From contig CM026428.1 of assembly GCA_014871385.1 (NCBI GenBank), forward strand, positions 10,274,772 through 10,338,771: DNA of 64,000 nt, given 5' to 3'. Made by a program: the position numbers and the translations under genes. The DNA is from Ceratodon purpureus. Its lineage: Eukaryota; Streptophyta; Bryopsida; Pseudoditrichales; Ditrichaceae. Positions 6,836-62,390 of this stretch are shown in pieces (positions within the stretch are counted from its first letter, which is position 1; every line of letters starts with the position of its first letter). The notes under the pieces were generated by a model that saw only the letters and a program-made list of their open reading frames with translations, did no database searches and was not told the DNA's origin.

Positions 6836-6945
6836 TTTCCCAAAGCATTTGATTGTGCTCTTTGGAATGTCAAGTATACTGCGAAAGAAGCCAAGTTCAT
6901 TTAATCCTTGAGAGTCAATATTTATTAATTTCAACAAAGTCTCTA

Positions 6946-7690: not shown

Positions 7691-7691
7691 A

Positions 7692-8895
7692 TCACTCATC
7701 TCCATGGCCGCTTCTACGTTCAATGACCACCGAACCGTGTCGGTCAAGTAACGGCTCGTTCGGAATTAAAATCCGTAAACTGCAACCCACTCTACAAATC
7801 TCGTGAATATTTCCTAACCCAGGATTTCTCCGTCGAAGCTTTATAAACATTCCGGCGCACGAACTAGTCTCGTCGCTCCTGCAGAAGTGATCAAACACGT
7901 CAATTCGGTGCTCAACGCGCCGCTCCTGCTCGATTTCGGAGAAGAGATAGAGCTCGCCATTGCTCTCCAACAAGTTCCAGACGATGTTGGAGCTTGTGGA
8001 ATATGGTAGTGGATGTGTGCACTCTGGTAGCCACTTCTCCTCTGCGACGCTGTATCCAAGAAGTCCTTTCCCTCGGTCGCCGTCGAGGAATGCGATGCAG
8101 TAGAGGATGCCGTTTATGTAAGCGCCGGTTTGGTGCTCGTTGAGAGCAAACAGTGGGCCAGGTAATTCTTCGGTTACCTTCCAAAGGTTGGTGATGGAGT
8201 CATATACTTCGGTTGTCTTTGAAAGGTGTTCTTCTCCTAGTCGTGAGGTGCCGGCGACGATGACCTTGTATGATTCCTCCTTGGCATCGACTATCATGTG
8301 CAAGAGGACGGGGAAACGTCGATTGGTGAGATGAGGGAGCTCCCTCTGCTTTCCTGTGAGAGGGTTGAAGACGACTAAGCGCTCTTGAGCTTTGCCAACG
8401 TTTGCACAGATGAGGCATCCAGCAGCGCAGATGGAGTGGTCTTTGAATGAGTCCGGATCAAGCTGTGGAAGGTTTGTGAATGGCGGTAACCTCATCCATG
8501 CTTTGGGTAATCAAATCATATCCTTCGCAACACCAGATGCCGTTCCTGACGAAGATTCAATACAATGCTGTGAGTAGACCTTCTCGCACTTTCCCTCGCC
8601 AGCCGTGGAAGTCCTTGCTGTCTATTAGATCTTTGAACACCTTGGATTGTGTTTTGGCTCGAAACAAGTCTAAGTAATCGAGCTTTGCGAGAATGGAGTT
8701 TCGAATGTCGACTGGGAAGGAAGTCCAGCTCTGTAGCTGCAGATCAGCAACCTCGCAATCTCCAGTTGGATTGCAAGATTCCGATGTCGTCAACTTTCGG
8801 CCAAAGCATTTGATAGTGCTCTTTGGAATGTCAAGTATACTGCGAAAAAAGCCAACATTTTATCCTTGAGAGTCAATATTTATAAATTTCCAAGC
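7692..8895 (-). pseudogene. Broken F-box/kelch copy
   Basis: The 5' part (about 8555-8895) is almost base-for-base the same as the 5' part of the intact F-box gene, including the upstream leader. The initiator is changed, however: TTG stands where the intact gene has ATG. After about 79 residues the frame meets a TGA just after TALY. The frame then shifts, and from about 8495 a kelch-type body continues with LVVFNPLTGKQREL and VYDSITNLWK. That body is clearly related to, but much more diverged from, the intact gene. The C-terminal ~60 residues do not resemble it. Loss of start, a stop and a frameshift make this a pseudogene; a shorter body-only product from a downstream Met is possible but unlikely. 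Confidence 0.8.
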
Positions 8896-11682: not shown

Positions 11683-11715
11683 ATGCGGGGGGAAGCATCC
11701 TAGGATGTCTAGGTA
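11683..11715 (+). repeat. Left target duplication and terminal inverted repeat
   Basis: ATGC at 11683-11686 is followed by GGGGGGAAGCATCCTAGG and then ATGTCTAGGTAGGAAC. It matches the right end in inverted orientation over 18 bases without a mismatch, apart from the length of the G run, then imperfectly. Confidence 0.7.
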
Positions 11716-12455
11716 GGAACGTCACACTCTCAATTCTCCTGAATTTGTGATTTTTGACCTTCTGATTGGGTTTTTAGAAATTGATTTTTTTTGATTATTG
11801 TATTCCAGCAAGTTCCAGCACTCCTTGTATTTGCAGAATATGAAGAGATAATTTGAAATTATTGGTGTTTTGTATTCCTATGAGTTTAATTTATTAAAAA
11901 ATTCAGGAATGTCACAAGGAGAAGTCATACAGTCAGGAACTTGTTACAAGTACATGGTGTGCTAGATTTTGAGATGCATTGATTGGGTTGGAGCGTACAA
12001 TCTTATGCTATTTGCTATTGTTATTTATTTGGCAGTAGTCTTGAAACTAATTTTCTAGAGAATTTTTGAAGTGGCCCCATCCTGGAATTATGAGGGCGCT
12101 GGAAGTAAGGAAAGGAAATTTAACTCTTTTTTGTATTATTCCAGTTTTGGCACCTACGTCGTTCCCTCCTCTAACGGCCTGTACTTGTTGATTGCATGCC
12201 AATGCGTTTACCTAGGAGTTAACGTCCTTTTAGAATCAGGATATAGAAAAGGAAAACGGCTCAATTCCTAAGAATTCGAGAATTCCTTGGACCATAACTT
12301 CCTTGGAAACTTTAAATCCCTGCCGTTAGATTAAGATCCAACTGCATGTCACGACACCCAGATTGGGATAGAGTCGTCTCTCTCACCGTAGCTCCTCCAC
12401 TCTGACCGCGGCTGCTACTCTTGAGCGCAGTTGATGTATTCGAAGTTTTACGGGA
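11716..12455. other. Left subterminal region of the giant element
   Basis: Non-coding. It contains AATTCCTAAGAATTCGAGAATTCCTTGG near 12,266-12,291, part of the TTCCT/AGGAA habit of the element. Near 12,372 there is TCGTCTCTC, the inverse of the GAGAGACGA motif repeated near the right end. The promoter for the PIP-box reading frame presumably lies here. Confidence 0.4.
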
Positions 12456-12815
12456 ATGGGTTCACGACGAGGTTCGGGTAGTGCTTCACAAGCGTTGATA
12501 ACCGATTTTTTTCAACAAGAAAGAGTGACAGAACCAGAGGTTGATGAGTGGGTATTTTATCAGACGTTGATTACAGATTTCTACAGGGAGAGGGAAGAAA
12601 CAGTAGAAGTCGGTCAATCATTTCCAGAGCACAGTTTCACTGATTCAGAGTTCCACAGCCTCCTGGACATAGGGCCGCAAACCCCAATCTCACAATTAAG
12701 TTTGAGATACTCAGATTGCACTCATGTTTCCGAAACCCCTGAAACTAGAGTTGCAAGACCCGACTTCGATTTTGATTCGGAGGTTCAGTCACAGATGCGT
12801 AAATGCTTGTGGTGA
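12456..12815 (+). CDS. Small protein with two PIP (PCNA-interacting) boxes
   Basis: An ATG-started frame of 119 residues, acidic and probably disordered. Residues 12-19 are QALITDFF and residues 36-43 are QTLITDFY. Both match the PCNA-interacting consensus Q-x-x-hydrophobic-x-x-aromatic-aromatic exactly. Both carry TD at positions 5-6, as in PIP degrons read by CRL4-CDT2, and the first also has Arg at +4 (residue 23). The frame ends in TGA immediately before a strong splice donor (GAG/GTAAGT). Weaker donors at 12799 or 12812 could let it join the transposase exon at 13268; donor 12799 keeps phase with that exon. It may therefore be a separate adaptor or the transposase N-terminus. Function is inferred from motifs only. 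Confidence 0.6.
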   Translation: MGSRRGSGSASQALITDFFQQERVTEPEVDEWVFYQTLITDFYREREETVEVGQSFPEHSFTDSEFHSLLDIGPQTPISQLSLRYSDCTHVSETPETRVARPDFDFDSEVQSQMRKCLW

Positions 12816-13267
12816 GGTAAGTGTCGAATGTCTCTTTTTGAATGCCTAATGGGTTTCTTTCATATTTCATTTAATTTTGTTTTCAAAAATTTGGCAGTCT
12901 CTAATCATGACTTCCTATTTCGCAGGTACAAGGTTCGGTACCTAATCAGGAAGGAAGTTTGCTTGCGGTGGTTTAGGTATTTAGAGCTTTTAAGCCAGAT
13001 TAGCGATACATAGATAGACCAGCCTTATATAATCTGCGACAGGTTTCTGAAACGTTAATGTGGAGTACACTGAGTAGCTGGGGGTAGATACTCCACCGCT
13101 GACTCTCTTCAATAAACTATCTACTGCATTCCAATTGCCATATGATTCTGTAGAGTTGGTCGACTTCCTGTGCAGCAGGTAATTAGGAGCAGGCCTTGTG
13201 GTTGTCATCGTCAGGATAAAAATTCCAGCAAGTACGATCGTTACGTACTTTTGTTCTTTTGTAACAG
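12816..13267 (+). other. Probable intron or leader upstream of the transposase
   Basis: It begins with a GTAAGT donor and ends in a pyrimidine-rich tract with a TTTTGTAACAG acceptor at 13267. An internal acceptor, TTTCGCAG at 12925, could add a small exon, but I found no frame that runs through it. Confidence 0.4.
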
Positions 13268-13275
13268 TCGATAGG

Positions 13276-16200
13276 ATGGCTCCCCGCAAAGATGATAGAC
13301 GACTTGGAGAAGGTAGCAGAGCCCGATTAGCTGCTCAGGAGAACTTAGTTCTTAATAAGGAGAAAGCAACTCTCAGACAGAGGAAGTGCCGAGAGAGGAG
13401 GAAGGAGAGGTTACAGAGGGCGTGCCAGGGTAATTTAGAGAGTGATGTCAGTGTGGTCAATATCCAAAGGTCCTCAACTCGTGCAGCAGAGAATTTAGCT
13501 GTAAGGTGGTTCCATGACACAAGCAGTAGAGGAATAGAGTATCAAAGAGCCTTGATTCCGAAAATTCTGAAGCACACTATTTGGCGTAATGTACTCCCTA
13601 ATTATTCTAACATGGAGGTAGCCCATAGTGCCGTGGCAAATATATCTCAGGGATGGCAGTATGTTAAAGGTGGTCATTCTAAAGACCAACAACGAGCCAG
13701 GAATGTGATCATTCCCATGCTTCTAAGTTCGAGTGGTATTAGCGCCAGACAGACCAGTCTTTTGACTGGAATTCACAGACGAAACTTAAAGTCGGGTTTG
13801 GTGAGGAGGCTAGCGTTAGAGTCGAAATCAGATAAAAGCCTGTGGGCGGTTTGTGGACGGCAAAGGCGAGTTGACTGTCTACCTCCCCATGTGACGAAGT
13901 TGGTAGAAGACTACTGGACAGCAAACACCCGAATCAGTCCCAACAGAAAAGATGTCGCAAGAAAACGCATTGGCGTAAAGGAGTGGATTTACCACCCCAC
14001 ACATCACCTCACCGAATCTCAGGTCAGTTGATTATTCTCCCTTGTTACACATAGTGTATGGTAGAGGTAATGTCCAATCTACCAGTATATTAACTTTACA
14101 AAGAACATCGATACACTGACTGGTCGATGCAGTCTTTGTTACTCAGTCTCGGCCCTGAGCTATAACCAAGGAAAAGCAGTCTTTGGAAATCAAATTGGTT
14201 TTGTCTAGGCTAACTCGCTTACACATGATTTTTTCTCCACATTTCAGGTCTTCGGTACATTTTGATTTTTCCTCGGGTTAGTTAATTAATATCATATTTT
14301 AGAAGCAATTGGAGTCGAGGTAATGCTGAACTACTAACATGTTCAGTGTGCTAATCACGAAACGATGCAGTGAGTGCAGTGACTGTTACTTTATCTCAGA
14401 CCTTCAGGATCTATAATAAACGGACAATAATCTCTGGAAATTTTAGGAACAGTTCTGTTTAGGAAATAAAGGAACAGTAATTCAAGGAACAGTAATGTCT
14501 ACCTAGGAATTGAAGTTGCAAGGAGTTTAGGAACAATTATTCTAGGAATAGTAATGTCTAGGAAAAGTAATGTGTTTCCAGGAATTCAAGTCATCATTTT
14601 TAATTTTTAATAAGATTGCCGCAAAAGAGAACTATATTGCAAAAGAATTGTTTATAAGCCCTCATCGGGTGAGGCACAGGGCGGGGGTTGTGGTCATGTA
14701 TTTCAGTCCCAAGTTTCACTATATTTTCTTTCCTAATAATTCCTGTGGACGTTGACTCCTCAGCTTTCCTTCTACACGCGCTTCAGAGTAGCTCATAGTG
14801 GCGTCGAAATTGGAGTGCGCTCTTTTGAAGCACTCAAACCTTGGTTTGTGCGGAGAATGCGGGAGTTCAATTCATGCTGCTGCAGATACCACGTGCAGAT
14901 GGCTGAATTGAAGGATGCACTGAACTTCATGCGCCGTGGAACAGTGCACAGAAACTGCTCCTGCCATTGTGACGTGTGTCGACCAGAGGGTGGAGAGGGT
15001 GTTTGCAAAGCATCGGAGGTGACTTTTCACTCAGTTACGAGGCTCTGTGAAGAAGTTCTGTGCCAAAAGCATGAAGATGAAGAGTTCCATGCACTAAGTT
15101 GCATTCGGGGTGATTGTACATTGTGTGGGGCTACGAAGTTGAAGATTTGCCCCAACGAACAATCTGAATCTACAAATGCTCTGGTTTCCTGGAAGCTGTT
15201 TGAGATGGTATTCGTCGGGAGGGGAGAAGACGGCAATGACAGGCATGCACTTCGTTTGGAGCACAAGATGACCCCACCATCTGAATTAGTTGCATCCTTG
15301 CGGTCCCACTTGGAAGAATTTTTGGTTCATAACTTTGAGGCAAAGTGGCAGGATCAACAGTTCAAGGTATGCATGGGAAACCTAAGTCCTGATGCAATTG
15401 TTTCGGTTGTAGATTTCGCTGAAAACTATGCATTTAAGTGGCAGAATGAAGTTCAGTCCCAGCATTGGTTTAGTTTTCAAGTGACAATATTGGTTCATAT
15501 TACATTCCGAATTCATCCAGAATGGGATGGGTTGGATCCTGAGAATAAGATACTCACGGAGTATCACTTTTACATCAGTGATGACAAGTCGCATGATAAC
15601 AATTTTGTGCAATACTGTTTCGGGCTTCATAGAGATTTTTTGAAGGAACAAGGGTTTCTTTTCCCGGTGGAGCACATAGTCTTTTCTGATGGCTGTGCCT
15701 CACAATTCAAGTGTGCGAAGTCATTGTATTTCGTTGCCAGGTATCCTTCTCTGACAGTATCTGAAGAGCTACCCCTTGGCTGCGTGATGCAATGGAATCA
15801 TTTTGGTACGGGTCACGGTAAAGGCCAGTGGGATGGAGCAGGGGCTCACGTGAAGGAGGCACTACGCAGGGAGCAAGTTAAACCAAACGGAGTGAGACTA
15901 CACAACTCCTGCGACGTAGTGACTTTCCTTCGTGAGGCTATGAACCAGGAATATGCTGGTTATCGCAACGCCCGTAGATCTGTACATCGCTACTTCTATG
16001 ACGTTAAGGAATTGGACGTTAACTTGTTCCAAGCACCGAATGCACGCACTGTAGAGGGTACTAGATCTTTTCATCAAGTTCGAAGTGTTGGGCTTGAGGG
16101 GACATCCTTGCAGGTTCGAAGACTCTCCTGCTTTTGTAGATTTTGTTTAGATGGTGGGGACGGACCATGTGACAATCTAGCTTTTGTTGAACCTTTTACG

Positions 16201-16698
16201 CTGATTCGGTTAGAGCCATGTGAACCGCAAGCTCTTACAAGGCGTGATAGGAGGCGACTTGATTTGCAGCCAACACAATTACATCCACGCATGACTACTC
16301 GTGAGGCACTTGCCGCCACATTGGAGGTTGGAGACCATTTTGCTGTCCTGGCAGATGATGGATCCGGCTACCCTGAATTTTGGATTCTTCAATGTCAAGA
16401 GCCTCTACACGGTGTCCAGGAAGATGTGATGGAAGATACCTGGGGTCAATCAGTTTATCGTGGAGAGCAAATTGTTATAGGTACCTACTACAAGCAAAGG
16501 GGCAGCAGTCGTTCTTCATACGTCAGAGAAGATCCACAACGACCTGCTTTCATTTATTCTCACTTGGTGGTCGCTACGAAATTCGATCTTCCAGTAGCCA
16601 CACATCGCCAGAAAGGAGGACGAGGAGGTACACAGGTGTACAAGCTCACAGCTGAGGCGCAGGAGCATATTCATTCTCAGCTCCTGGTTCTGGACTAG
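13276..16698 (+). CDS. DDE-like transposase, two exons, about 893 residues
   Basis: Exon 1 runs from the ATG at 13276 to 14022 and begins with a basic region (MAPRKDDRR, then an Arg/Lys-rich helix). Exon 2 runs 14764-16698. The intron 14023-14763 has GTCAGT and CTCCTCAG borders and both junctions are phase 0, giving a smooth TESQ-LSFY join. A Cys-rich zinc-binding cluster (CSCHCDVC, further CxxC pairs) lies at about 14,950-15,150. Candidate catalytic acidic residues are in VVDFAENY (15412), FSDGCASQFK (15688) and HGKGQWDGAGAHVKEA (15832 or the following Glu). This is the pattern of a group of large DDE-type transposon proteins that I recognise from plants and animals but cannot name with certainty. 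No stop or frameshift was seen. Confidence 0.7.
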
Positions 16699-18190
16699 TA
16701 CATTTCATGTAGTACTCTTGTTAGAATATTTCTTAGTATTATTTCTTAGTACTGTTCCTAGAATTTCAGTTGGTCAAAGGATTAGTAATGAAAGATCGAC
16801 CCAGGAACTTGAAAATGTTGTTATTTTACGGATCATTGTATTTGGGATCAAATTGTACAAAATGATATCTGTCGCTAACTGTTTTCAAAGTAATATCGTG
16901 TGAATGAATTTGGATGAAATTCAGATGATTTAGATGTTCATATCACCCGGCTATATCTGCAAGTTCATTCCATCGACAATATTTGGTGAAACTATATATT
17001 CCACAACAATAGTAATACATTGGAACCAGCCCAGATCCTCAGAAAATCAGAATATGTGTCATCATGCGGTTGGCTAATAAATAGTATGTTCACTCAAATA
17101 GTAATAATGATGGATAATAGAAGAAGAATAAAAAATGTACTCGATGAGATCACATTATCCTATGTTAAATAAATATATAATTAAAAGAATTCTTAAGTTA
17201 TAACACGTGTCAAAATAAGATTGGGTAGTAAAATGAGGTACAATGTAACTGACAGGATTGCATGTTGTTACGGGGCGTTTATTCAAGGTTTAGTAATTTC
17301 AGTGTATACATAAAGGAAAGGACATGGCCAAACGTTCAAGGAAATAAATTTCAGGGTAGCTTGATATCCTAGGAAACGGGCGATTCCTCAAACATTGCTC
17401 ATTATTTACAAATACTAACCATTGTTAACGATGTACTAAATTTCACTAAAAAGGATATTTGTCAATTTCAATGTAATATCTCTTTTATAACTTCCCTAGG
17501 TTTTGAATATTCCCAAAAAAGGGATTTGTGCCAACAGTTATGTGAGATTCGTTCTCCTTTCTTCCTAGATTCTGGAACATATGTTCTTAATTTTTTATTA
17601 AAAATATAGTTTTCTCTTTCACACACGAGTTTATGTTGAGAAAATAAAAAAACGTTTCAAAAAGGTCCCCACAACTGGACTTCTGACACAACTCCAATTT
17701 AATTTTGAATTGTGTCATGCTGGAGCCGGTCCCCGCCCAGTCTGAGGCGAGGTACGTCACTCCACTCGATTTCTCTCGTCCCAGCTCTGAACTGGGACTC
17801 GGTTGCCAACTGACGAGGATGTAAAAGTAAATGAATCCTTTTATTACCGCGCCTAGGTGTCCCAACTAACGATATGGGATAACTACGTATAATCCTCAGT
17901 AAACTTTGCCCTCGCCAATGTATCATGGGTATCCAACAGATATCGACGGGTACATCCTGGTTACCGCAGTAGTACCAACTATGTTGGTGCCATGGTACCG
18001 AGAAGGAGGGAGGCCCGGTTAATAACCACCTGATGCACAGGTGCTGTTGGATCGATGCCGAAGTATCACTAGTTTGATGCCCCGTTAATACTACCATGAT
18101 GTACTCTCTCTCCTCTGTTTATTATTTCATATCTTAGCCATACCAATTCTGACACTTCTATTTTTAATTATATTTGTTTTTTTACTTTAC
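16699..18190. other. Non-coding interior of the giant element
   Basis: AT-rich DNA with scattered TTCCTAG or CCTAGGAA motifs (16,751; 17,368). From about 17,690 to 18,110 the composition changes to a more GC-rich block. That block is open on the minus strand for 132 codons, but I recognise no protein or RNA in it. Confidence 0.35.
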
Positions 18191-20735
18191 CTTAAATATA
18201 GGATGTCACCCTTGAGCCAATATATTCTTCCACCTACATTACTATTTCAAGAAAGATTCCATTTGTTGGTCAATCTAATTAGGACACGTGTTTTTTTTTT
18301 TAAATATTATCTTAAATATATGATGTCACCCTTGAGCGAGTATATTCTTCCACCTAGATTACTATTTCAAGAAAGATTCCATTTGTTGGTCATCTAATTA
18401 TGACACATATTTTTTTTATTTTAATTTTATCTTAAATATATGATGTCACCCTTGAGCAAGTTTATTCTTCCACCTACATTACTATTTCAAGAAAGATTCC
18501 ATTTGTTGGTCAATCAAATTAGGACACGTGTTTTTTTTTTTTTAATCTATCTTAAATATATGATGTCACCCTTGAGCAAGTTTATTCTTCCACCTACATT
18601 ACTATTTCAAGAAAGATTCTATTTGTTGGTCAATCTAATTAGGACACGTGTTTTTTTTTTTAATATTATCTTAAATATATGATGTCACCCTTGAGCGAGT
18701 ATATTCTTCCACCTAGATTACTATTTCAAAAAAGATTCCATTTGTTGGTCAATCTAATTATGACACATGTTTTTTTTATTTTAATTTTATCTTAAATATA
18801 TGATGTCACCCTTGAGCCAGTATATTCTTCCACCTAGATTACTATTTCAAGAAAGATTCCATTTGTTGGTCATCTAATTATGACACATGTTTTTTTTATT
18901 TTAATTTTATCTTAAATATATGATGTCACCCTACAGCCAGTATATTCTTCCACCTACATTACTATTTCAAGAAAGATTCCATTTGTTGGTCAATCTAACT
19001 ATGACACATGTTTTTTTTTTTTTTTTTAATTTTATCTTAAATATATGATGTCACCCTTGAGCGAGTATATTCTTCCACCTAGATTACTATTTCAAGAAAG
19101 ATTCCATTTGTTGGTCATCTAATTATGACACATGTTTTTTTTATTTTAATTTTATCTTAAAAATATGATGTCACCCTTGAGCCAGTATATTCTTCCACCT
19201 ACATTACTATTTCAAGAAAGATTCCATTTGTTGGTCAATCTAACTATGACACATGTTTTTTTTTTTTTTAATTTTATCTTAAATATATGATGTCACCCTT
19301 GAGCAAGTTTATTCTTCCACCTACATTACTATTTCAAGAAAGATTCCATTTGTTGGTCAATCAAATTAGGACACGTGTTTTTTTTTTTTTAATCTATCTT
19401 AAATATATGATGTCACCCTTGAGCAAGTTTATTCTTCCACCTACATTACTATTTCAAGAAAGATTCTATTTGTTGGTCAATCTAATTAGGACACGTGTTT
19501 TTTTTTTTAATATTATCTTAAATATATGATGTCACCCTTGAGCGAGTATATTCTTCCACCTAGATTACTATTTCAAAAAAGATTCCATTTGTTGGTCAAT
19601 CTAATTATGACACATGTTTTTTTTATTTTAATTTTATCTTAAATATATGATGTCACCCTTGAGCCAGTATATTCTTCCACCTACATTACTATTTCAAGAA
19701 AGATTCCATTTGTTGGTCAATCTAATTATGACACATGTTTTTTTTTTTTTTTTTATATTATCTTAAATATATGATGTCACCCTTGAGCGAGTATATTCTT
19801 CCACCTAGATTACTATTTCAAGAAAGATTCCATTTGTTGGTCATCTAATTATGACACATGTTTTTTTTATTTTAATTTTATCTTAAATATATGATGTCAC
19901 CCTACAGCCAGTATATTCTTCCACCTACATTACTATTTCAAGAAAGATTCCATTTGTTGGTCAATCTAACTATGACACATGTTTTTTTTTTTTTTTTTAA
20001 TTTTATCTTAAATATATGATGTCACCCTTGAGCGAGTATATTCTTCCACCTAGATTACTATTTCAAGAAAGATTCCATTTGTTGGTCATCTAATTATGAC
20101 ACATGTTTTTTTTATTTTAATTTTATCTTAAATATATGATGTCACCCTTGAGCCAGTATATTCTTCCACCTACATTACTATTTCAAGAAAGATTCCATTT
20201 GTTGGTCAATCTAACTATGACACATGTTTTTTTTTTTTTTAATTTTATCTTAAATATATGATGTCACCCTTGAGCGAGTATATTCTTCCACCTAGATTAC
20301 TATTTCAAGAAAGATTCCATTTGTTGGTCATCTAATTATGACACATGTTTTTTTTATTTTAATTTTATCTTAAATATATGATGTCACCCTTGAGCCAGTA
20401 TATTCTTCCACCTACATTACTATTTCAAGAAAGATTCCATTTGTTGGTCAATCTAACTATGACACATGTTTTTTTTTTTTTTTTTTAATTTTATCTTAAA
20501 TATATGATGTCACCCTTGAGCAAGTTTATTCTTCACCTACATTACTATTTCAAGAAAGATTCTATTTGTTGGTCAATCTAATTAGGACACGTGTTTTTTT
20601 TTTTTAATATTATCTTAAATATATGATGTCACCCTTGAGCGAGTATATTCTTCCACCTAGATTACTATTTCAAAAAAGATTCCATTTGTTGGTCAATCTA
20701 ATTAGGACACGTGTTATTTTATTTTATTTTTTTAT
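18191..20735 (+). repeat. Tandem array of about 21 units of ~120 bp
   Basis: Each unit carries GATGTCACCCTTGAGC, then ATTCTTCCACCTA, ACTATTTCAAGAAAGATT, TTTGTTGGTCA and a variable T-tract before TTATCTTAAATATAT. GATGTC starts at 18202, 18322, 18442, 18562, 18681, 18802, 18922, 19047, 19167 and so on to 20626; a degenerate unit follows at about 20750. Variants recur in a higher-order order: the block from 18442 is repeated at 19289, 847 bp (seven units) later. Some units contain a CACGTG G-box and others CACATG. Unit length varies mainly in the T-tract, as expected from slippage. Short open frames inside are by-products of the periodicity. Confidence 0.95.
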
Positions 20736-22010
20736 TGTACCTTAAAAATATAATGTCTCCGTTGAGCCATTATATTCTTTATATACTATCCACCTATATT
20801 AGTATGACTAGGTTTTTTTTTTCTTTATTTGTTTGGTAATTTAATAATGACATGTTTTAAAAGTATTACTTTATGTGTTATACTTTTATAAACCCCTGAA
20901 GTTGTGACATTACTTCAGATACAATACTTGAGAATATGAAAGAAGCATTCCCTTAACAATCTTTGATGAAATTGATGGTGTGAAATGGATAAAGTCGGAG
21001 TGAGTTATTTGGTTTCGGTTTCCCGCCTAGATACTCTACAATCAAGGCTTGCCAGCTGTTTTCCCGCTACAGCTGCACGAATCCAACCATGCCACGTATT
21101 TTCCCGGCAAATTTTCTCGAGAAGTCCCCTGCCTACATGGCGTTTAGGGTTTCAGTTCAGCCGTTGGTCTTCCTTCTCGCCCATCACTCTTTCGTTTTGG
21201 ATAGATCTGTTTTTGCGAGGTTTTCCACCGTAGAGGGGTTTCACAGTCTTGTTCGTTTCGTTGTGCATGTTTGTTAGGGGCCTGTGGATATGGTTCAGGA
21301 TTATGGAAACCGCTAGATGAGTGAAGTACATTGGGGCGGATTTCTGAGCAAGGTTTAGTCTGCACCTAGAAGCAAATTCTCCTCGTGTTTCCTCTGCGGC
21401 AGATTCTGTGGAGAATGGGTCTTCCAGAACCCTACGAGTCTGTGGAGATGTATCGCTATAGGAATAACCCAGTTTATTTCTTCGTAGGAGTGTTTGAATT
21501 GTGGGATCCTCATTAGAATCTGAGTCAGCACAAGATCCTCCAAGGAACTACTTGTTTTGGGTTTTAAAAACGTATTCAAATGGATGTGACACCTTTGGTG
21601 TCGGCAGCCATTACTGGGAGTTGACATTGTAGATGTCGGCGGCCATTAATCTCTCCTCGTCATTCTTTGTACAAGGGTTATTAAGTCATCCTGAATTCTA
21701 TAGTACTCGTCTCCCTCCCGAGCAAGCTCTTGGATTCTAAGGGCTCTTGTTATTCTTTAGAGTTTCCAGAGTTGCTACTTAGAATGAGCTTCTATCCTAG
21801 ACTTGTTGCGCTGTTTGAGAAGCTTGTTTAGTATAGGTGGGAGACAGTTTGTGCATTCAAGGAGTGGGTGGGGGTGTTGGAGTTCCTGTGGGCCTTGGCT
21901 GTACCGTGGACGTGGGTTCCAGTGTCGTTGGTTTAGTAGGAAGGAGTTGTTTTGCCTTAGAAGGTTCATTGCAAGAAAACGAGTTCTTGGAGCACAACTG
22001 GGACGGGGGG
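20736..22010. other. Interior of the giant element, possible 5' region of the coiled-coil gene
   Basis: After the satellite decays, the DNA becomes more GC-rich at about 21,040-21,330 (AGGGTTTCAGTTCAGCC). This resembles a plant 5' leader or promoter region. No frame is convincing, and upstream exons of the gene at 23.8-25.5 kb may lie here. Confidence 0.3.
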
Positions 22011-22640
22011 TACGAGGAGCTCAGGTACCTGCTGCCACCTTCAGGGGATCAGGTTCTTAATCACGTCCACCTTTTTCTGAATTCCAATTCAATATTGCCG
22101 TGACAGCTCTCTTCAAGGTTGCAATCAGTTTGAAGTCTTGGTTGAATTCTGCTTTCAGTTATGTTTACATACATTAAATCCGTGAAAACCCGTGTTCTTG
22201 CAAGCCGCTAGTAGTATCCTGCTTTCCAGTGCTGTGTGTTACTTGATTAGTCGTGTTTCTGATTTTGTCTTTTGGAACAATGAATGTCTAATCCTTAGGG
22301 GGGTACGAGGAGCTCAGGTACCTGCTGCCACCTTCAGGGGATCAGGTTCTTAATCACGTCCACCTTTTTCTGAATTCCAATTCAATATTGCCGTGACACT
22401 CTCTTCAAGGTTGCAATCAGTTTGAAGTCTTGGTTGAATTCTGCTTTCAGTTATGTTTACATACATTAAATCCGTGAAAACCCGTGTTCTTGCAAGCCGC
22501 TAGTAGTATCCTGCTTTCCAGTGCTGTGTGTTACTTGATTAGTCGTGTTTCTGATTTTGTCTTTTGGAACAATGAATGTCTAATCCTTAGGGGGGTACGA
22601 GGAGCTCAGGTACCTGCTGCCACCTTCAACGAATCAGGTA
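22011..22640 (+). repeat. 293-bp tandem duplication with partial third copy
   Basis: TACGAGGAGCTCAGGTACCT starts at 22011, 22304 and 22596, so two nearly identical units of 292-293 bp are followed by a third that diverges after about 45 bases. Each unit contains CTCAG/GTACCT, a possible splice junction, plus pyrimidine-rich sequence. It therefore looks like a duplicated exon-intron module. Confidence 0.9.
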
Positions 22641-23673
22641 GTAAATCACGTCCATCTTCACCTGACTTCCAAATGTACATTACTCGTGACTGCCCCCTTG
22701 GTTGTAATCTGTTTGGTGACATTGGTCGAATACTGTCTTTCCCTACATTGAATCAGACTTTGTTTTACTTGATCACTCGTGTCTATGTTTATGTCTTTTA
22801 AAACAAACAGTGTCTATGCCTTATGACTGTCCCTTCAAAATTATGAATGTAGGAACTATCATTCCTTTTCTACAGTGGGAGTTGGCTTTCAATTCTGATT
22901 CGAATTTACTGAAGACTGGTCCTTTGATGTGTTTGGTGATAGTTACAGTCCTCATTTACAGGAAGCTCGCTCTGAATGCAAGGACTTGCTCCGACAATAC
23001 TTACTTGGAGGTACAATGCAGGTTATCCAGCACCACCTTAGAGAAGGAAGTTTATATCTACGGCATTTGATCTCCTATGGGTGAGGTAAGTCCTTTTCCT
23101 CACAATTTCCTTGTTCATCAATGGTATCCTTTCCAGTTTTAATGAGACTATTGGTTAGGTTCACCATCCTTTCACATGTCTTCCTTGTCCATGTGTAGTC
23201 TACGTCAAAGGACTATGAAGTTGAATTCAGGAGATTATGCTCCTTTTTCAAGTAATTCATTATGACTTAATTCCTTTTCTATTGCTTAGGGTTCAGGGTG
23301 AGAAACTGAATTTCAGGAATGACAAAGACCAACTCCTACTGTCAAAGACTTCAAGGATCATAGACGGTGAGTCCTGCACGGGCCTGTCCTCCTCCTGTTT
23401 TAATTTTACTTACATGTTCCTTAATTCTTGATGTGCTTTCTTGTTTTCCTTGTACTCTCTCGGCTCTTGTCACCTCCTTTCAATACTATACTTGCTTTTG
23501 GATCCTTGTTCCTGACCATATATACTGTTTTCCTTTTCCTAGCTATGTAGTTATACTATCGTAGGAGATACTTTTATCGGGTCCTGGTTCCTAGACATAG
23601 GTATCATACTTTTATACTGTATCTAGATACTGTTTTCGAGTCCTGGTTCCTGAATTTAGTTGCTTTCGTACTT

Positions 23674-23845
23674 GTTTCCACTCCTTGTTCCTTGTCCTAC
23701 ATACTTTCATGCGGGTTTTCCGGTCCTTGTCCTATAATTCTTATTTGATTACTTGTTTTGTTTCCAGTCCTTGTTCCTTGTCCTACATACTTTCATGCGG
23801 GTTTTCCGGTCCTTGTCCTTAATTCTTATTTAATTATTTGTTTTG
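23674..23845 (+). repeat. 86-bp direct duplication in intron-like DNA
   Basis: Two copies of a unit beginning GTTTCCA, with CCTTGTTCCTTGTCCTAC, start at 23674 and 23760. They are almost identical and lie just upstream of the coiled-coil gene's splice acceptor. They are rich in the GTTCCT-type motif that is common in introns of this element. Confidence 0.85.
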
Positions 23846-23870
23846 TCTATTATTGTTCTTGAAAACAGGT

Positions 23871-25498
23871 ATGACAATGGACTTGAAGGTTTTCTACTAC
23901 GGGGAGAAGGGCTGGTTCAAGTATGTGACAAGGCTGAATGGTGATGGGCTCATCCCTGGATCTACCCTCACTGAGGAGCATGTTAGCAAGGAGCAATGCA
24001 AAGAAATGTTTGTGTATGGAGGACGGCAATCAAACAATGGTTACAGAACCAACCTCTGGACTTCGTTTTTCAATGAGAGAGTTTCATGGCTATGGATTCG
24101 AGTTCATCAACAAGAGAAGCCAGCCAACAATGACTTCGGACTCAGCTTCGCCCAAGGTCTGCTTCACGAATACAAGACCAATGAGGAAGTGGATTGGGCA
24201 GGTTTTGCTGCTCGCACTGTGAACCGTTTCAATCGAACGAAGGGAGTGAATCAGGTTCATCCGCTCTGGGCTTGGGCACATCCCTCAGTTGTGATTGACG
24301 TTGGCAGTGGTCTCCCTGTTCAGACAGACTACAAATTCCCCGTGGCTCCAGGCTCTAGACCTGTTCGGTGTACAATGGCCACCACATTACCCATGGTAAG
24401 ACCCTAAGATACGGTTTTTTTAAATCTAATTATTTTCAAGCATTTGTTAGTTTATTTCCTCCTTGTGTGCTCACATTTGTCTAAGGATTCCAATTTGTTT
24501 TTCTGCAGCGGTTACCGATATTGGAGACTGAACAGGGCACACGCAAAGGCAAGCGTGAGAGATCTCCATCTGCTGAAGATTCTGACTGGGACAGAGAGAA
24601 TGAGAGAAGAAGGAAAAGATATAGAACCAGATCACAAGTGAAGTACGAGAGCCCTCTACAGAAATTGGAACACGTGGCAGGATCTTCAACTGGGGCCGAT
24701 GGGTCTTCTTCGATGTCTATGGGTGCAGAACTTCTCCAAACTCTTTCTACGTCAGAGCCCAAGACACAGCCCAAGCCCATATCCGATTCAGCACTGGATT
24801 CGCTGGCCAACACGGACTCAATCCCGGGATCAGCTCGAAGAAGTCTGGTGATGGCGTCGGATCAGGCTCCAAGCTGCAAGCCAAAGGAAGAAGATGCTAA
24901 AGACCTCGCCGGGTATCCAGAACTTCAACTCATTTTCTGAATCTATTCATGCACACATTCACCACTATATGTTGACTTTGTTTTCTAAAGTATATTTTTT
25001 GTTTGATGTATTGAATTTCCGCACATTAGGATCCTTTCCTCTAATGTAAGTGTTTTATTTTTATCCAGACCCTCTGATCCTTCAAGAATCCCAAGCAGTG
25101 GACCGAATACAGAGAAGGTTTTGGCGGCACTTCGCCACTTTGGAGCGGTAATACCAAAAGTGGTTGAGAGTGTAATTTCAAACCTCGATTTGCAAAAGAA
25201 GGAGTTGCAGCAGGCGTATGTCGTTGCACAAGAGTTTACTTCATCTGCAAACAGTGCTAGGGCTGAACTCTCTACACAGCTTGAGAAGGCAAGACTAGCA
25301 GCACGTGGAAATCCCAGTGACGAAGTTCAAGGTGAAGTCCGATATCTTGAGTGTGGATTGAAGTATGCGGAAGGGAGAGTGGAGACTGCAGTTGCTAAAG
25401 AAAGAGAGGCCCTGCTAGCATTTCAAGCCCACTGCACGAAATTGGAAGACATGCGGAAGGACCAGTGGGTACTAGAGGAGTATTTCATTTTCAAGTAA
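23871..25498 (+). CDS. Element-encoded coiled-coil protein, three exons, about 452 residues
   Basis: Exons 23871-24395, 24509-24912 and 25069-25498 join in phase 0 and phase 2 with GTAAGA/CTGCAG and GTATCC/ATCCAG borders. The first ATG follows an acceptor at 23868, so upstream exons may exist. Residues ~1-130 form a conserved-looking module (LKVFYYG, EEHVSKEQ, FAQGLLHEYKTNEEVDWAGFAA). The middle is low-complexity and basic (KGKRERSPS, RRRKRYRTRS), probably a nuclear localisation signal. The last 140 residues are a predicted long coiled coil. The N-terminal module resembles that of the RING gene on the opposite strand (EFARGVV-EIK-VNWAAYA), so the two are likely paralogues. Function is unknown; an accessory DNA-binding or assembly role is a guess. 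Confidence 0.65.
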
Positions 25499-26157
25499 AC
25501 CAAAGCCATTCCTACAAATTCAGGTCTATTCCTTCCATGGGCATCATGTTTATGTATTGATGCCTTAATTGTCAATTATTTCTTTCTTTATGATGATATG
25601 TGTTTAACATTCTGAAAATTGCTTTGCAGTTCACTGCTCGTGTGAAGGCCGAAGACTAAGGCAATCCCCAGAAATCGGGACATGGTGCACAGTTGGTGCA
25701 TGCGTCGTATTGTTGTGTTACAGTTCTCTTCTAGTTTCGGTGTATAGTGTATAACGAATGCTATCTTTTTCATTTCTGGTTCCTTGTTATCTATGATTAG
25801 TACAGTGTGAGGACTGTGCATATTAGCTCACATGTAATGACCCTGAACCTAGGAATTCAGTTACAGTATTCAGTGAATATTATGAATTCACATACACTAT
25901 CAATATTGTCATTTGTTTGTAAAAGTTTATGCTTACCAAAAATTCGTAAGAAGACCCTGGTTGATTGTGTCTTATCAAGTCCAGATGTAGGTTTGGTTGT
26001 AGGATCCTCAGTGGTTTTTTCATTGTCGAGCTTATTTAATTTCTCCTGCAAGAGTCTGCGATTTTGAATTTGTTCCAGTTCGTACTTTTAGACTGACGAT
26101 GAACCGAGACTTCTACTTAGGGTGCTATAAGCATAACTTCTGACATACTCTTGTAAA
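25499..26157. other. 3' flank of the coiled-coil gene
   Basis: It contains a possible alternative last junction (TTCAA/GTAAAC to TTTGCAG at 25629), which would change only the last residues. The rest is AT-rich and presumably untranslated or spacer. Confidence 0.35.
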
Positions 26158-26352
26158 TCACAACCTAGTATGTAAATGAATGGTATTCTTATCTGGTTGC
26201 ACAATAGTCATTGTATTGATGGAGTGTGCGAGCATTATATTTTGAGTAGAAGCGCGGTTGTCTTTCAGCAGCTCTGTGAACAGTATCCTATACACAAATA
26301 AGTTTCCAATTGACTTAGGAAGATCAAAATTATTCGACACCAAAGTTTCCAA
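26158..26352 (-). pseudogene. LRR fragment (minus strand) inside the giant element
   Basis: The minus-strand frame reads ELETLVSNNFDLPKSIGNL, a plant resistance-gene LRR phrase. Repeat character is then lost within about 25 residues. It is too short to be a gene, and I take it as a captured or nested relic. Confidence 0.35.
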
Positions 26353-26429
26353 CTCCCCAATCTAGTGTAGTAGCAAAGTCGTTCCTGTACAGAATCTCCA
26401 TTATCATTGCAATCCTTCATTCCATTTGT

Positions 26430-26650
26430 GTGATGCTTACGAGATTGGTTAGGAATCGAAACTTCTCAACTAAAAAAAATAGTATTTTAAATATTTGGCG
26501 ATTCAGTATTCGGCCACAGTCCTATGGAGATATGACCAGCTTGGAAGCTATGATATGTAAATGTGACAACCTTGCGGTCATACCACATTCCTTTGGGGAA
26601 CTAATCAATATAACGGACTTGACCCTGATGGCCATTCTTATAAAAACAAA
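26430..26650 (+). pseudogene. LRR fragment (plus strand) inside the giant element
   Basis: The frame reads GDMTSLEAMICKCDNLAVIP and continues HSFGELINITDLTL. This matches the LRR rhythm of plant NLR proteins, in opposite orientation to the fragment 80 bp away. No other NLR motif is near. It lies between the 3' ends of two convergent genes. Confidence 0.45.
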
Positions 26651-26883
26651 TGATACAATTCTAGACTCCCGTTTGAATGCACGGAATGAGGAAAACTTAG
26701 ATCATATTAATTACATATATCCTACACCAACAGCATCCAACACCACCAAGTTCAATATAATTATGCTTCAACAAAAACAAATAATCATCAAGAAGGGACC
26801 ACAGAAATAATATAATGAACTTGATTGCTGAATGCATAGTTTACAGAACAAACTAAATCATATTCAATTCTTATTTCCAAATC

Positions 26884-29800
26884 CTACACTCTATCCTTCC
26901 CTCCTCTCGTTCTTCCGGAATGTTTTCCACCTGAGGATGATGGGGGAGAGATGTCTGCAAGCAATTTCATTACCTCCTTGTGTTGACCACCTTGCCCTTT
27001 CAACCTTGTGGATCTTTGAGCTGTGGTACTTGTTACAGGGTTCTTCCTTTTCCCACGAGAAGGTTGGACTTCTTTTGACCCTTCTTGCTCAACCTGGTCT
27101 CCTTCTAATGGGGTCCCTATTGGATCAAGATCGAATTCACCTGTTCCACCTCTACCGTGTTCCTTACAGGACACTACAGCTCCCTGGTCAGTTTCAGTTG
27201 GCCCTAAATGCGGCCCAAGTTCATCGTTATGAACTTCCTCAGCAGACCCCTCCTCATCTGGACTGGTGTCAGTGGCCTGTTTATCATTTGATTCTTTTTC
27301 TGGGATGTTGTTAGGAACGGGTTCCTGCTCAGTATCCTCTTGAGTAGAACTACTCGCCAATAACCGCTTCGGTTTATTCAAAACTGTGGTAGGCACCGGG
27401 TGGATAAATTCAGCCTCATCTTCTGATGTGTCATCCGAATCTGATGATAGATCTGGTTCTTGTCCACCAAAAATTTCCATACCATTTCCACTCTTCCTTG
27501 GACAAGGATTTGATCGACCAGTCTTCTCGTCAACTTCAGGGTCAATAGCACAGTTGAATGCACTTCCAAGTGCTAACGGAGCTAATTGCGGTACAAGCTT
27601 TGAATCCCTGGCTCCATCAACAATGTCTTGACAGGTCGGACAAAGGAATATGTCACCTGCACATCCCTTGCAAACGCCAGAATGCCCACAAGGCTGCCAA
27701 AAGAATTGCAGAAGTATCAGTAAATTATATTGGAGTGAAGATAATTTAATTAGTAAAAATGTTTGCAGAATTTATATAACATCTCAAGTAAAGCTGGAAG
27801 GTAAGTTACACACCTGCAAAGTAACACGGAGATTGCCTGGTCGCTTGCATACTAAACACTCCTCCATATCATCCGAGCCTTGTGAATCATCATTAACATG
27901 GGCCATGGCTTCTTGTGATGATTGGCTGCAGTTGCTACGGTAAATGTCCTGCTCACTCTTCTGTTCACAATCGAATTGTAACCCATCAATAGACCGTGAT
28001 TTCTCAGTGCCCCTTCTGATTATGTCTGCTTTCCCAGAGCTCACGGGTGTGCCTGTATGTATTCGATATGTCTGACTAGGTCTGCTTGCTTCAGAAGTAT
28101 CACCCAAAGATATTCCATCACCTGAAATCACCAAATGAAATGCACAACAAGATCAGTGGACATAGAACATCGGGAAACAATTATGTATACAGGAAACTGA
28201 ATTCTTGAACAAGGAATACATTCCTTAAAAAATGAACCGATATCCTTGATTAGGACACACAGCAGGAACTTTTAGGACTAATAGTAGAGTGTTGAGTCAC
28301 GGACTTACAGGACTAGGAGTAGAGTGGTAAGGGTGATACTTAAGGAACAGAATCTAAAAGGAGTAGTAAGAGGACCAAGGACCTTATACACTTATTCCTA
28401 AATAAATATCCTAGCGTATCTGTTGTACCAGGAATGAATAAATCTACAAAAGGAAAGGTAAAAGTATACAGGAAAAAATCCTCGGCTATTCGGTCTAACA
28501 GTAATATAGACTCTAAAGACAGTCCTGAAAGAAAGTCATAGAGCATATAGGAGCAGGAAGACAGTATTCGGTAAGGAAAGCCAAAATGCTATGCAGGAAG
28601 TTAGTTCCTAAATCCAGACTCTGATTCCTAGGACGCAAGGAAGTAATAAAATAAAAACAAAGGAAAGTATGTCCAGACAGCTGTGTCCAGAGTCTCCTTT
28701 TTAACAAAGGAAGAGGAAATTCATCAGGAAAGACGTAATAAAATAAAGACAAACAAGAGGACTGTGTTCAAATGGCTATGTCCAGAGTCTCCTATTTAAC
28801 AAAGGAAAAGGAAACAAATCAGGACGTGGGATAACAGCTCAGAACTAGGAAAAACCGTAAACAAGCAGAGTAGGAAATAGAAGTAGAACTCGGTAATTGC
28901 CATAGGAAACATGAACATCGTAGGCTAATCTAGTGCTGTCTCCAAGGAGTCTCAGTAATCTATGGAAAAAATTATGAGCACCTTCCTATTCAACTGAAAG
29001 GAGACATAAAATTCAACCCTAAACTTAATCAATAATTCAATGTTAAAACAACCCACAAAAATGCAAAATCTGCCAGGTCCGTGTTTTCCTCGTAGAATAG
29101 AATAGAAATCTTACCAGACATTCCACCAGAGATCGGACTGCCTTGGGTGACATCAGGAGTTGGCACAGAGGAGGGGGGTTGAGGAAAACCCCACGATAAT
29201 CTCCATTCGGGGTCAAATTCCTTGTCACAGAACTCTTCAATACACAAATTTGACTTTGAAGAGTGACTGATTAGACAGAAGGGGTGATAGCAATGGCCGC
29301 ATGAAGTCACAGCAATATCGTTGCAATGAAAGTCTTCACCACAAACTGGGCAGTTTTCTACATACAGAATATTACTCTCTCTATGAAATTCCTTCGGCCT
29401 CTGTATTGGGGAGGGACTAAATCTATGTACAGTACCATACTTCAACAACCCCAGGTAATTGACAACTAAATGTTGGAACTGCTCCATGCAAGCTTGACTA
29501 CGAAATACAGAATTGTACCTCTTTGTGCATGCTTCCATGCTTTCAGCTAAACGAGCACACTGAGTCTCTATTTCTTCTAATTTTAGAAGGGCGTGCTTAC
29601 TGTTTCGTTCCTCTAAACGCAACTGATCCTCTAATCCAGAAATCCTAACTGCAACGGAGTCATCTGAAGAGGAAGTCGGGTTACAGTGGGAAAGATTAGG
29701 AGAAGAGTGGGCAGGACTAGAGTAGATAGGATTACTAGGAACTCCTTCGTCTGGACAAGTCGTCCACATATCAACGTACTGACTGGCACTTTCTAACGCA

Positions 29801-30856
29801 GCCTTGACCTTTAGAACTTCAGATTGAGCAAACTCGGCAATGGATTTTCTATCACTGCACATTATCTTGGCTCTTCGAAGATCCAACTCTCTCTCCTCCT
29901 TCTCTAAGCTCAAAACCCTCAACCGCTCCTTTGTTGCTATGAATCCTACCTGGGCACTAGCCAGTAGACACTGGACTCTCTCAATGGTCTTGACATTACT
30001 TTCCTTGACGCTACTCAGACCAAGTTCATGCTTCACGACACCCTTACCACGCTTACTGGAGGAAAGGGAATCCATCCTAGGCCGCAAATTAGGTGTTGGT
30101 GGCAGCCGTGGACGATTGCTATCAATTGGTAGAGACGGCAGAGAGACACCTGGCGGTTCACTAAAGCGTGAACCTCGCTCCAGAGTGATCGTAGGAGAAC
30201 TAGGAGGCTCAGATAAATCACCCTCCAAGGATACAGAGCGTAGGGCTTCTTTACTGCTCACGCCAGATTCGGGGAGTTGAAGTTTCCTAGTGTGAGGTGA
30301 ACGAAGCTGCTCTGCCCTTGCTCTCCTGCTGTCCTCGAGGGCTCGCCGTTTGCTGTAAGCAGCTACTGCATAAGCGGCCCAGTTAACTTGTATTTCCTTG
30401 ATCTCCGCCACAACTCCACGAGCAAATTCCAGGGAAATTGTGTCATTTAACACAGACTCTCTTCTGAAAACACGGCGGTAGAGATCTTTTATTTGGCGCT
30501 GAACCTCAGGTGAAACGTTCCTGGTAATCTTCCAACCATTCTTATCGAACCTTGGCCCCAAAACATCCTCAATTTCTTGAAGGGAAACATCACTCTCAGT
30601 GAGGGATTTCACTGGACGGCCTTTACCTCGCAATCCCTGCCTATTCACGAAAAAATGAAGGTTGTACACCACCTGCAAAGACAAAGTTCGGACGAGAAAT
30701 TAGATAAGCAACATTGTTGTTCCCGCCGTCAACCCTAAATCCTAAACCATAGCTATCTCCAAGCAAAACACTTCCAAAAAATACTTGCAGCCAAAGCATC
30801 GAAGACAGAGAAGCCACGGTGTGAGATATGAAGTTCTGGTGTCCTACCGCAGCCAT
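26884..30856 (-). CDS. Dual-RING coiled-coil protein, four exons, about 915 residues
   Basis: Exons on the minus strand are 30856-30785, 30672-29115, 28121-27814 and 27693-26884. All borders are GT-AG and phases agree (0, 1, 0). After an N-terminal module shared with the coiled-coil gene come a Ser/Pro-rich linker, a long coiled coil (about 29,450-29,990), and a first RING-like finger, CPVCGEDFHCNDI with CGHCYHPFC and a CxxxxC pair, near 29,230-29,355. A second RING, CLVCKRP then PCGHSGVCKGC and CPTC, is split by the last intron at RVTLQ/PCGH (27814/27693). The C-terminus is acidic, ending in a basic KRK-containing segment. RING proteins usually act as E3 ubiquitin ligases, so this is probably an element-encoded ligase. 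The target is unknown. Confidence 0.7.
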
Positions 30857-31347
30857 TGAAATACAAGACAGCCGACAATCAAAACAAAGGGAAATCGAAA
30901 GAGCGTGCAATCAACAGAATCGAAGTGAGGAGAATATACGACAATTTGATTACCTAAGACATACATATTTCGATTCCTAAAAGACGTTGCGAAAATTCTG
31001 AGAGCCAGTACGCCGTAGGCGGAGAGACGATGGAGAACAACTTCTAATTCGGAGAGACGATGGGCAACTTTCGGAGAGACGGTTGCAACATCAGAACTTT
31101 CGGAGAGACGATAGCCTAAAGCTCTCTAAGAGAGTAGGGGAAAAATCCGAATACAAAGGGTCAGGGGGCATGCGAAGGAACGGGGTATGCGAAGGAACAG
31201 AGATCAAGCGAACCACTTTCCTGTTAAACCGACCAATAAGATAATTACGAATTTCAAGGAACAAATAATTCCAAATATTACATCAGGGATACTTTGATTC
31301 CTTGGTCCTTGGTTCCTAGTGGTACCACCCTAGGATGCTTCCCCCCC
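30857..31347. promoter_or_regulatory. Right subterminal region and promoter of the RING gene
   Basis: CGGAGAGACGATGG-like units repeat four times between about 31,019 and 31,110 (CGGAGAGACGA/G), separated by 20-30 bases. A GAGAGACGA match in inverted orientation occurs near the left end at 12,372. Such subterminal repeats often bind transposase, and here they would also lie in the 5' region of the RING gene. The segment ends in GATTCCTTGGTCCTTGG and the inverted terminus. Confidence 0.5.
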
Positions 31348-32220
31348 ATGCAGATGAGTCGTATGAGTCAAATGCTCTATCAGGTCAAAATGGTGGTGGG
31401 ACTCTAGTTTTTGCACGATGTAGGAGCAGATTTGTGCATACAATCGTGTCAGTTAACCCCTAAATGCCCAAGGGTGTCTTTCATCAAAACTACCTAAAAA
31501 CAGCCCCTCTTCAAAGCAAGGTGGATTTTGCAAACTTGGGGATTTAATTAGTACATCTAACTGTAAGATCTTGTAGCTAACTTCTATGTCTACATGTCCT
31601 CTAAATCTTGCACACTAATTCCTCACCAATCGCAAGATCATAACGTTCAAAATTGAAAAACAAGATTTTTTTCCTGCGCAAAAAGGGATCAGCAGAGTTT
31701 TGAAGGCCCAAATAAATATTTTTTTGCATTATGGATTTTGAGGGTTTTCATGCACGTCAAAGAAGACTGAGTTAGCTAATTGTGTTAAGAAAATCATATT
31801 CAAAAAAGTTGACAATCAGTGGGGAGCTTGGAAAACTAGTCTGATGAGTAGCTAAGGAGCTCCACGTTTTCCGGTGAGGAGGGTCTTGGGAGTTAGCCGC
31901 TGGAGATGAGTGCACAGGCAGCATAGGGGTTGGATTTGCTGTGGAGTCCTATGTGCACTTTGTTTTTCTGTGGTTGTATGAGAAGGTAGAGAATGTGTGT
32001 TGGAAAGGACTCAGATTAGGAAGAAACCAGATCTAGTGAATAGTTTGTGCTGGAGGTTGAAAGACACATAGCAAAGGGCTGGGCCTTGTGTTGGTGTTAT
32101 GATCTGATGTAACAGCCCACAAACTGAAGCCAGATCTAGTTTCTCCATCCACTTAGACAAGCTATTGCGATTCTGTGAAACCTCTCCACTCCACTCACAA
32201 GACCAGCCAGATCCGGAAAA
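31348..32220. other. Host DNA to the right of the giant element
   Basis: It begins with the second ATGC copy. At 31453-31470 it carries TTAACCCCTAAATGCCCA, one half of an inverted pair whose other half is at 50895-50912. No gene is recognised. Confidence 0.4.
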
Positions 32221-42728: not shown

Positions 42729-42745
42729 CAGCGTTTTTTATAACT
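42721..42745 (+). repeat. hAT left target duplication and terminal repeat
   Basis: CTCCTATC is followed by CAGCGTTTTTTATAACT. The duplication recurs exactly at 47096-47103. Confidence 0.9.
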
Positions 42746-47095: not shown

Positions 47096-47103
47096 CTCCT
47101 ATC

Positions 47104-62340: not shown

Positions 62341-62390
62341 CTCACTGTCGGCAGAGCTAGATACGTTGGTGCCATGTAGGCCACTTTCAA

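Follow-up and report, generated by a model that had tools for sequence, protein, structure and literature searches.

Eukaryotic DNA transposons usually contain one gene, or a transposase gene together with one helper. The plant elements MuDR, CACTA and VANDAL carry the accessory genes mudrB, TNPA and VANC, the transposases of Sola are of the DDD type, and two mobile-element proteins, the Pogo transposase and ORF2p of LINE-1 (long interspersed nuclear element 1), have been reported to bind PCNA. Here we analyze a 64-kb window of the moss Ceratodon purpureus genome (the whole stretch of 64,000 nucleotides, C8:10274772-10338771, in an assembly of 362.5 Mb and 151 contigs), in which a 19.66-kb unit with G-rich ends has inserted at ATGC and duplicated these 4 bp. 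Units with the same set of genes are found at other positions in the assembly, and we consider it very likely that the unit is an autonomous, multi-gene, cut-and-paste DNA transposon in which a transposase gene (gene A) is accompanied by the accessory genes B, C and D.

Among described elements, the Sola2-Fanzor elements of Dictyostelium and Polysphondylium are Sola2 transposons that have captured Fanzor and possess 12-21-bp ends and 4-bp duplications; the duplications are AT-rich (AWWT or similar), and some of these elements are nearly identical over a left part of 7 kb but differ in their right parts (PMC3627910). A second report assigns to the CMC transposases, including Lanisha, a C(2)C then H(3-4)H motif between the second D and the last E, and mostly 5'-CA..TG-3' ends (PMC12730594). 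Lanisha was reported by authors of the Ceratodon genome (PMC12730594, PMC8000587). In hAT, P, MuDR, Kolobok and Dada, a C/DxxH motif lies between the second D and the last E, according to a further source (PMC9587614). Our literature search found no description of the moss element, which may be catalogued in the Ceratodon genome paper or in Repbase Reports, both outside that search.

Results

The 19.66-kb segment is one copy of a recently mobile DNA transposon

The left end of the element is the terminal inverted repeat GGGGGGAAGCATCCTAGG, which starts at 11687, and its reverse complement finishes at 31346. The boundary features are as follows:

11683..11686, no strand: left copy of the 4-bp target duplication, ATGC
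11687..11704, plus strand: left terminal inverted repeat, GGGGGGAAGCATCCTAGG, with 47 exact copies in the assembly
31329..31347, minus strand: right terminal inverted repeat, with one C extra
31348..31351, no strand: right copy of the 4-bp target duplication, ATGC

An earlier note on this DNA had described matching inverted ends with ATGC repeated outside them. Both are present, with the correction that the right end is one C longer, having seven C (31341-31347) against six G at the left end; overall, the left and right arms are identical at 20 of 21 bases. ATGC is flush with the window copy only if its right end has gained one G:C pair. The window sequence alone is equally compatible with a 3-bp duplication, ATG, which we rejected for this copy because other copies show 4 bp.

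These ends form the longest perfect inverted repeat of the window among arms at least 500 bp apart. Because an 18-bp perfect inverted repeat was also reached in 3 of 60 dinucleotide shuffles of the window, the window alone is only suggestive. It is the genome-wide search that makes the ends certain, with 47 exact matches of the 18-bp end in the assembly and 0 of the reversed control. Together with other copies bearing 4-bp duplications of their own, this search bears out the 19.66-kb DNA transposon that the earlier note had proposed, and confirms the segment as a single copy of a cut-and-paste element that is repeated and has moved recently.

Copies with both ends, for which the earlier note had proposed a search, were found. 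End matches less than 60 kb apart gave eight neighbouring pairs, seven facing inward and one not; the inward pairs span 15.2-26.7 kb (n=7). A 4-bp direct repeat lies outside the ends in 7/7 inward pairs, the window copy needing its extra C:

ATGC: window copy
AGGC and CCTA: two pairs on contig C1
CAAA, CTCT, CTGT and TATA: four pairs on contig C6

The two C1 copies are 98.0-99.7% identical to the window copy over the blocks that contain the four genes and 95.5% identical over another block; stretches around an internal tandem array do not align. Two C6 copies are mostly 91-98% identical, with larger gaps and a few short blocks of ~79%.

The joined flanks of the window copy, a query of 215 positions, have three junction-spanning matches of 72-74% identity, one each on C10, C6 and C1, which cover positions 22-213 or 31-213 of the query. 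The junction reads GAATGCAG at two of these empty sites and GAATGTAG at one, so that two have a single ATGC and the third has ATGT, one substitution away. The empty target with a single ATGC, which the earlier note had also proposed to look for, thus occurs at paralogous repeats of the same genome, and not at the same locus in another plant.

The transposase carries tandem PCNA-binding-like motifs

The candidate transposase is encoded at the left of the element:

12456..16698, plus strand: gene A, transposase of 1012 amino acids, open spliced frame
12456-12811, 13275-14022 and 14764-16698, plus strand: predicted exons of gene A
12489..12512, plus strand: first PCNA-interacting-like motif, QALITDFF, residues 12-19
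12561..12584, plus strand: second PCNA-interacting-like motif, QTLITDFY, residues 36-43
D585, D677 and D725 (or E738): candidate catalytic residues of the gene A product

The splice sites were predicted from the sequence and, for the first intron, also from sites kept in other copies; the exons are numbered 0, 1 and 2 in the comparisons below. The acceptor at 13275 yields an open frame, and other copies retain its AG; for these reasons it was preferred to the acceptors at 12926 and 13268. Four acidic residues of exon 2, D217, D309, D357 and E370 (residues 585, 677, 725 and 738), are identical in 5/5 aligned sequences, one of which is 43% identical to the query. Exon 2 had no match in Pfam or NCBIfam, and none in the PDB better than one chance-level hit (E value 0.88).

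The two motifs near the N-terminus resemble PCNA-binding motifs; such motifs bind PCNA, as in p21. QTLITDFY is unchanged in 8/8 aligned copies, including that of the window. QALITDFF is unchanged in the window copy, both C1 copies and the copies on C4, C11 and C2, and is one residue off in the two copies C6b (QALMTDFF) and C6a (QPLITDFF). In all six frames of the 64-kb window, these two are the only strict matches.

Searches for relatives beyond the moss gave little. In viral contigs, a protein search for the transposase produced eight pattern stretches, none of them confirmed, and a degenerate transposase motif gave no match. The same motif found 44 loci (300,510 bases) in prokaryote genome contigs, none containing a strict PCNA-like motif. 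By sensitive tblastn, two of the 44 fell under 1e-3: L021 (E value 1e-4) and L030 (E value 5e-4). L021 is also similar before the motif (32% over 62 amino acids), and we take it to be a weak, distant relative of the transposase. L021:1412-1597 lies on a 3.1-kb contig binned in a bacterial metagenome-assembled genome and may encode a relative of the transposase core; if the relationship is true, the contig is probably a stray eukaryotic one. Around its motif, L030 is similar to four other bacterial loci, and L030 and the remaining loci are taken as chance matches.

Three accessory genes lie downstream of the transposase

The earlier note had placed a transposase and at least two further genes on both strands between the ends. 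We find the transposase and three accessory genes, on both strands, along with a tandem array:

18173..20779, no strand: AT-rich tandem array inside the element, ~21 units of ~120 bp each
23871..25498, plus strand: gene B, partial model, segments 23871-24404 and 25007-25498
26884..28150, minus strand: gene D, predicted exons 28150-27814 and 27693-26884, 5' limit unsure
29029..30672, minus strand: gene C, main exon only, no upstream exon or start codon located

Alignments with other copies differ or break at the array (18173-20779).

The earlier note had also named a RING protein in the cargo, and there are in fact two genes with RING-type fingers, one scoring above its Pfam cut-off and one below. 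In gene D, a C3HC4-type RING finger is formed across the splice and is followed by an acidic stretch; the spliced product matches Pfam zf-C3HC4_3 with 32.8 bits against a cut-off of 27. The main exon of gene C encodes stretches that look like coiled coils by eye, as well as a RING-H2-like finger whose last pair is C-x4-C. Genes C and D have 81 matches each in the assembly.

Gene B gave no convincing domain, its best case being a kelch model with an E value of 0.008, far under the Pfam cut-off of that model. Its segment 25007-25498 appears coiled-coil-like by eye, and its first segment (23871-24404) is 65-66% identical in the C4 and C11 copies. A proposal that genes B and C are paralogues was not supported by BLASTP (best E value 1.4).

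Gene B also belongs to a large dispersed family, with at least 150 scored matches in the assembly and groups at about 66% and 30-41% identity; many of these matches stand where no transposase match is listed. One place was examined among the gene B sites lacking a listed transposase match, C10:7771001-7779000. There, a gene B homologue of 68% identity has a related transposase downstream on the other strand, in segments of 41-51% identity, so that the association between gene B and transposase persists at this place in a different layout.

The accessory genes travel with the transposase

Transposase matches in the assembly include fragments, and their counts are lower bounds. Forty-eight cover at least 95% of the query and 36 of these are at least 85% identical; the other 12, at 43% identity, were left out because the gene C search cannot see their cargo. 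Among the near-full transposases listed, 28/36 are followed by gene C within 30 kb, at a distance of 9.0-22.0 kb downstream and on the opposite strand in 28/28. This count used 61 of the 81 gene C matches, 20 fragments of fewer than 200 residues being left out. The earlier note would have been refuted by ends that occur independently of each other. In part they do, as 33 of the 47 exact ends lie outside any inward exact pair, although many of these 33 may belong to diverged or truncated copies; yet transposase and cargo stand together at those 28 of 36.

The same holds when the cargo genes are taken as the starting point. For gene C, 60/81 matches lie within 60 kb of a transposase match or an exact end, and 19 of the remaining 21 have a gene D match at most 30 kb away. 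For gene D, the corresponding numbers are 58/81 and 18/23, the latter within 30 kb of a gene C match.

Additionally, the gene set is found in more distant elements. Two sister-subfamily elements on C4 and C11 (19.2 and 18.9 kb, with duplications CCAT and TGCG and ends GGGGG[G/C]AAGCATCC) hold homologues of all four genes, with order and strands unchanged. A still more diverged element, C9:10398014-10409133 (11,120 bp), has the duplication CTCA, the ends GGGTG[A/T]AAGCAGGCTAAGG, a transposase 43% identical to that of the window and a gene C-like gene on the opposite strand; no clear homologues of genes B and D were found in this region. It sits in a LINE, and removing the element and one CTCA restores a frame of 1475 amino acids. 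The C9 end pattern has 11 exact matches, with inward pairs elsewhere too, against 0 for the reversed control; this element is the only member of the 43% family that was read. For the C2 copy, the 17 kb examined contained no cargo match, but gene C is found ~48 kb downstream from the transposase; an insertion may separate the two. Thus, the three accessory genes travel with the transposase, and the unit is a self-contained multi-gene element and not a chance cluster.

Selection and mosaic structure

We calculated synonymous distances and the ratio of nonsynonymous to synonymous change (dN/dS) between the window copy and the C4, C11 and C2 copies. Codons containing a stop, which occur in C4 exon 1 and in several rows of C6b, were excluded, and gene D exon 1 rows were left out, being out of frame. 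Synonymous divergence climbs along the element from the left end to the cargo. In the transposase it is 0.22-0.36 for exon 0, 0.34-0.37 for exon 1 and 0.77-1.37 for exon 2; in gene B segment 1 it reaches 1.4-2.2 (C4 and C11 only); and in genes C and D and gene B segment 3 synonymous sites are saturated between subfamilies. In view of this gradient, the left module (the end and the 5' part of the transposase) seems to have passed between subfamilies at a later time than the cargo, as in the Sola2-Fanzor elements with their near-identical left parts.

The dN/dS values are 0.15-0.25 for exon 0, 0.13-0.14 for exon 1, 0.06 for exon 2 and 0.13-0.19 for gene B segment 1 (C4 and C11). Against the C1 copies, gene C gave 0.39 and 0.17, with few changes and scattered values.

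Genomic distribution

One contig, C6, is strongly enriched in copies. With 110.5 Mb, or 30.5% of the assembly, it holds 55/73 transposase matches among those listed and 36/47 end matches. Near-full copies on C6 hold stops more often than those elsewhere: 11/11 outside C6 have no internal stop, and 11/25 on C6. According to a review, C. purpureus has a 360-Mb genome with U and V chromosomes of more than 100 Mb each (PMC8000587).

Other features of the window

At 42721-47103 lies a hAT-like element with an 8-bp duplication, CTCCTATC, ends starting CAGCG and transposase-like open reading frames (ORFs). It sits within a LINE whose ORFs continue on both sides, and both are named from their translations. 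Two F-box/kelch-like ORFs, by reading of translations, occupy 5606-8890 on the minus strand, where a 347-bp stretch is repeated at 6592-6932 and 8547-8890 with 93% identity. Lastly, 59681-62405 contains two ORFs that read as phloem-protein-2-like in translation, with blocks 80-88% identical.

Discussion

We propose that the gene A product binds the ends of the element, cuts them through a D-D-D (or D-D-E) site and joins them to a target with a 4-bp stagger, as its motifs suggest. The tandem PCNA-binding-like motifs in its N-terminal region suggest that the sliding clamp may recruit it, which would tie excision or insertion to DNA replication or repair. The three cargo genes B, C and D would be accessory factors rather than captured passengers, given their co-inheritance, the purifying selection on gene B and the RING domains. 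Most likely they would act by protein contacts and ubiquitination, helping the element to be expressed or to transpose in the face of host silencing.

Several observations weigh against this interpretation. Gene C is missing from the 30 kb around eight of the 36 near-full transposases; five of these have it at 33-54 kb, and three have none within 60 kb. Gene B relatives also occur at places without a detected transposase of this family. The RING-type finger of gene C scores 15.6 bits with zf-RING_2, under the Pfam cut-off of 27.3, and is under the cut-off in the C9 relative too. The saturation of synonymous sites in genes C and D precludes dN/dS between subfamilies, and gene D against the C1 copies gives 0.89 and 1.48, from a handful of changes. 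For gene A, the join of exons 0 and 1 is itself a prediction, the catalytic residues were picked on conservation alone, and a slightly wider PCNA-like pattern has no match in the 26 kb around the C9 relative. Lastly, the three empty sites are only 72-74% identical to the window flanks and are without 9 bp of the right flank, from 2 bp past ATGC.

The superfamily of the element is unsettled. One serious possibility, which we put at somewhat less than even, is that it is an ordinary Sola-superfamily element carrying a few additional genes. The element appears Sola-like in the length of its duplication (4 bp at 10/10 insertions examined, the window copy needing one extra C) and possibly in its triad, since a D...D...D set is invariant; Sola2 elements with captured Fanzor, short ends and 4-bp duplications are moreover already published (PMC3627910). 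Against this, the AT-rich duplications of Sola2 were not seen, with A or T at 21/40 duplicated bases, and Sola was compared by description only. Other superfamilies fit less well. The C(2)C then H(3-4)H motif was found after D309, taken as the second D, in 0/5 sequences, and Lanisha, which came into question because Ceratodon workers had described it, was rejected on this motif and on the ends. C/DxxH occurs between D309 and E370 in 0/5 sequences, if E370 is the last residue, and the TTAA duplication of Kolobok and piggyBac in 0/10 duplications.

A bolder view, which we regard as unlikely, is that the element stands for a new superfamily, or a deep new lineage, among the DNA transposons of land plants. 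Such a lineage would have a four-gene genome, a transposase tethered to PCNA by its two N-terminal motifs and timing its jumps to replication, a RING set removing host silencing or repair factors by ubiquitination, reshuffling of modules between families and build-up on a sex chromosome.

It is improbable that the cargo consists of host genes captured by the transposon (Pack-type) and without a role in its life. Gene capture is common among plant transposons, gene B has relatives at many other places in the assembly, and 2/81 gene C and 5/81 gene D matches are near no transposase match, exact end or other cargo gene. However, the same three genes recur in the same order and on the same strands in subfamilies whose cargo is only 38-66% identical, and a gene C-like gene is kept beside a transposase of 43% identity. 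Most gene C (60/81) and gene D (58/81) matches moreover lie in or beside remains of the element, and most others adjoin each other. A segmental duplication or host gene cluster with edges merely resembling transposon ends, which could appeal to the similar inverted repeats of the shuffled window, is refuted to near certainty by the distinct 4-bp duplication of each copy, the empty sites and the LINE frame restored in the C9 relative.

The three accessory genes, kept between diverged subfamilies, form a natural series on what extra genes do for a DNA transposon. The two RING-type proteins suggest that ubiquitin-based counter-defence can belong to a transposon, and the tandem PCNA-like motifs make a link to replication directly testable. 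Additionally, the C6 copies and the near-identical intact copies elsewhere make the birth, decay and module exchange of such elements traceable, in a haploid plant with large sex chromosomes.

Cut-and-paste transposons with accessory genes are a known kind. The moss element shares with Lanisha and CMC (EnSpm/CACTA and kin) that they are cut-and-paste DNA transposons, but its ends are GG...CC and not CA...TG. Like MuDR, CACTA and VANDAL, it would be an autonomous plant element whose transposase is joined by accessory genes that aid regulation or counter silencing; unlike them, it has three such genes, two of them RING-type, kinship having been checked by Pfam and NCBIfam only. With the Pogo transposase and LINE-1 ORF2p it would share a PCNA-binding motif in a mobile-element protein, whereas gene A has two strict motifs in tandem, with putative binding, in a transposase without known relatives here. 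Compared with the Sola2-Fanzor elements, by description only, it has three accessory genes instead of Fanzor, G-rich ends and duplications that are not AT-rich. It shares with them 4-bp duplications, short inverted ends, a large transposase and an additional gene and, as in those elements, common left ends are combined with right parts that differ between elements.

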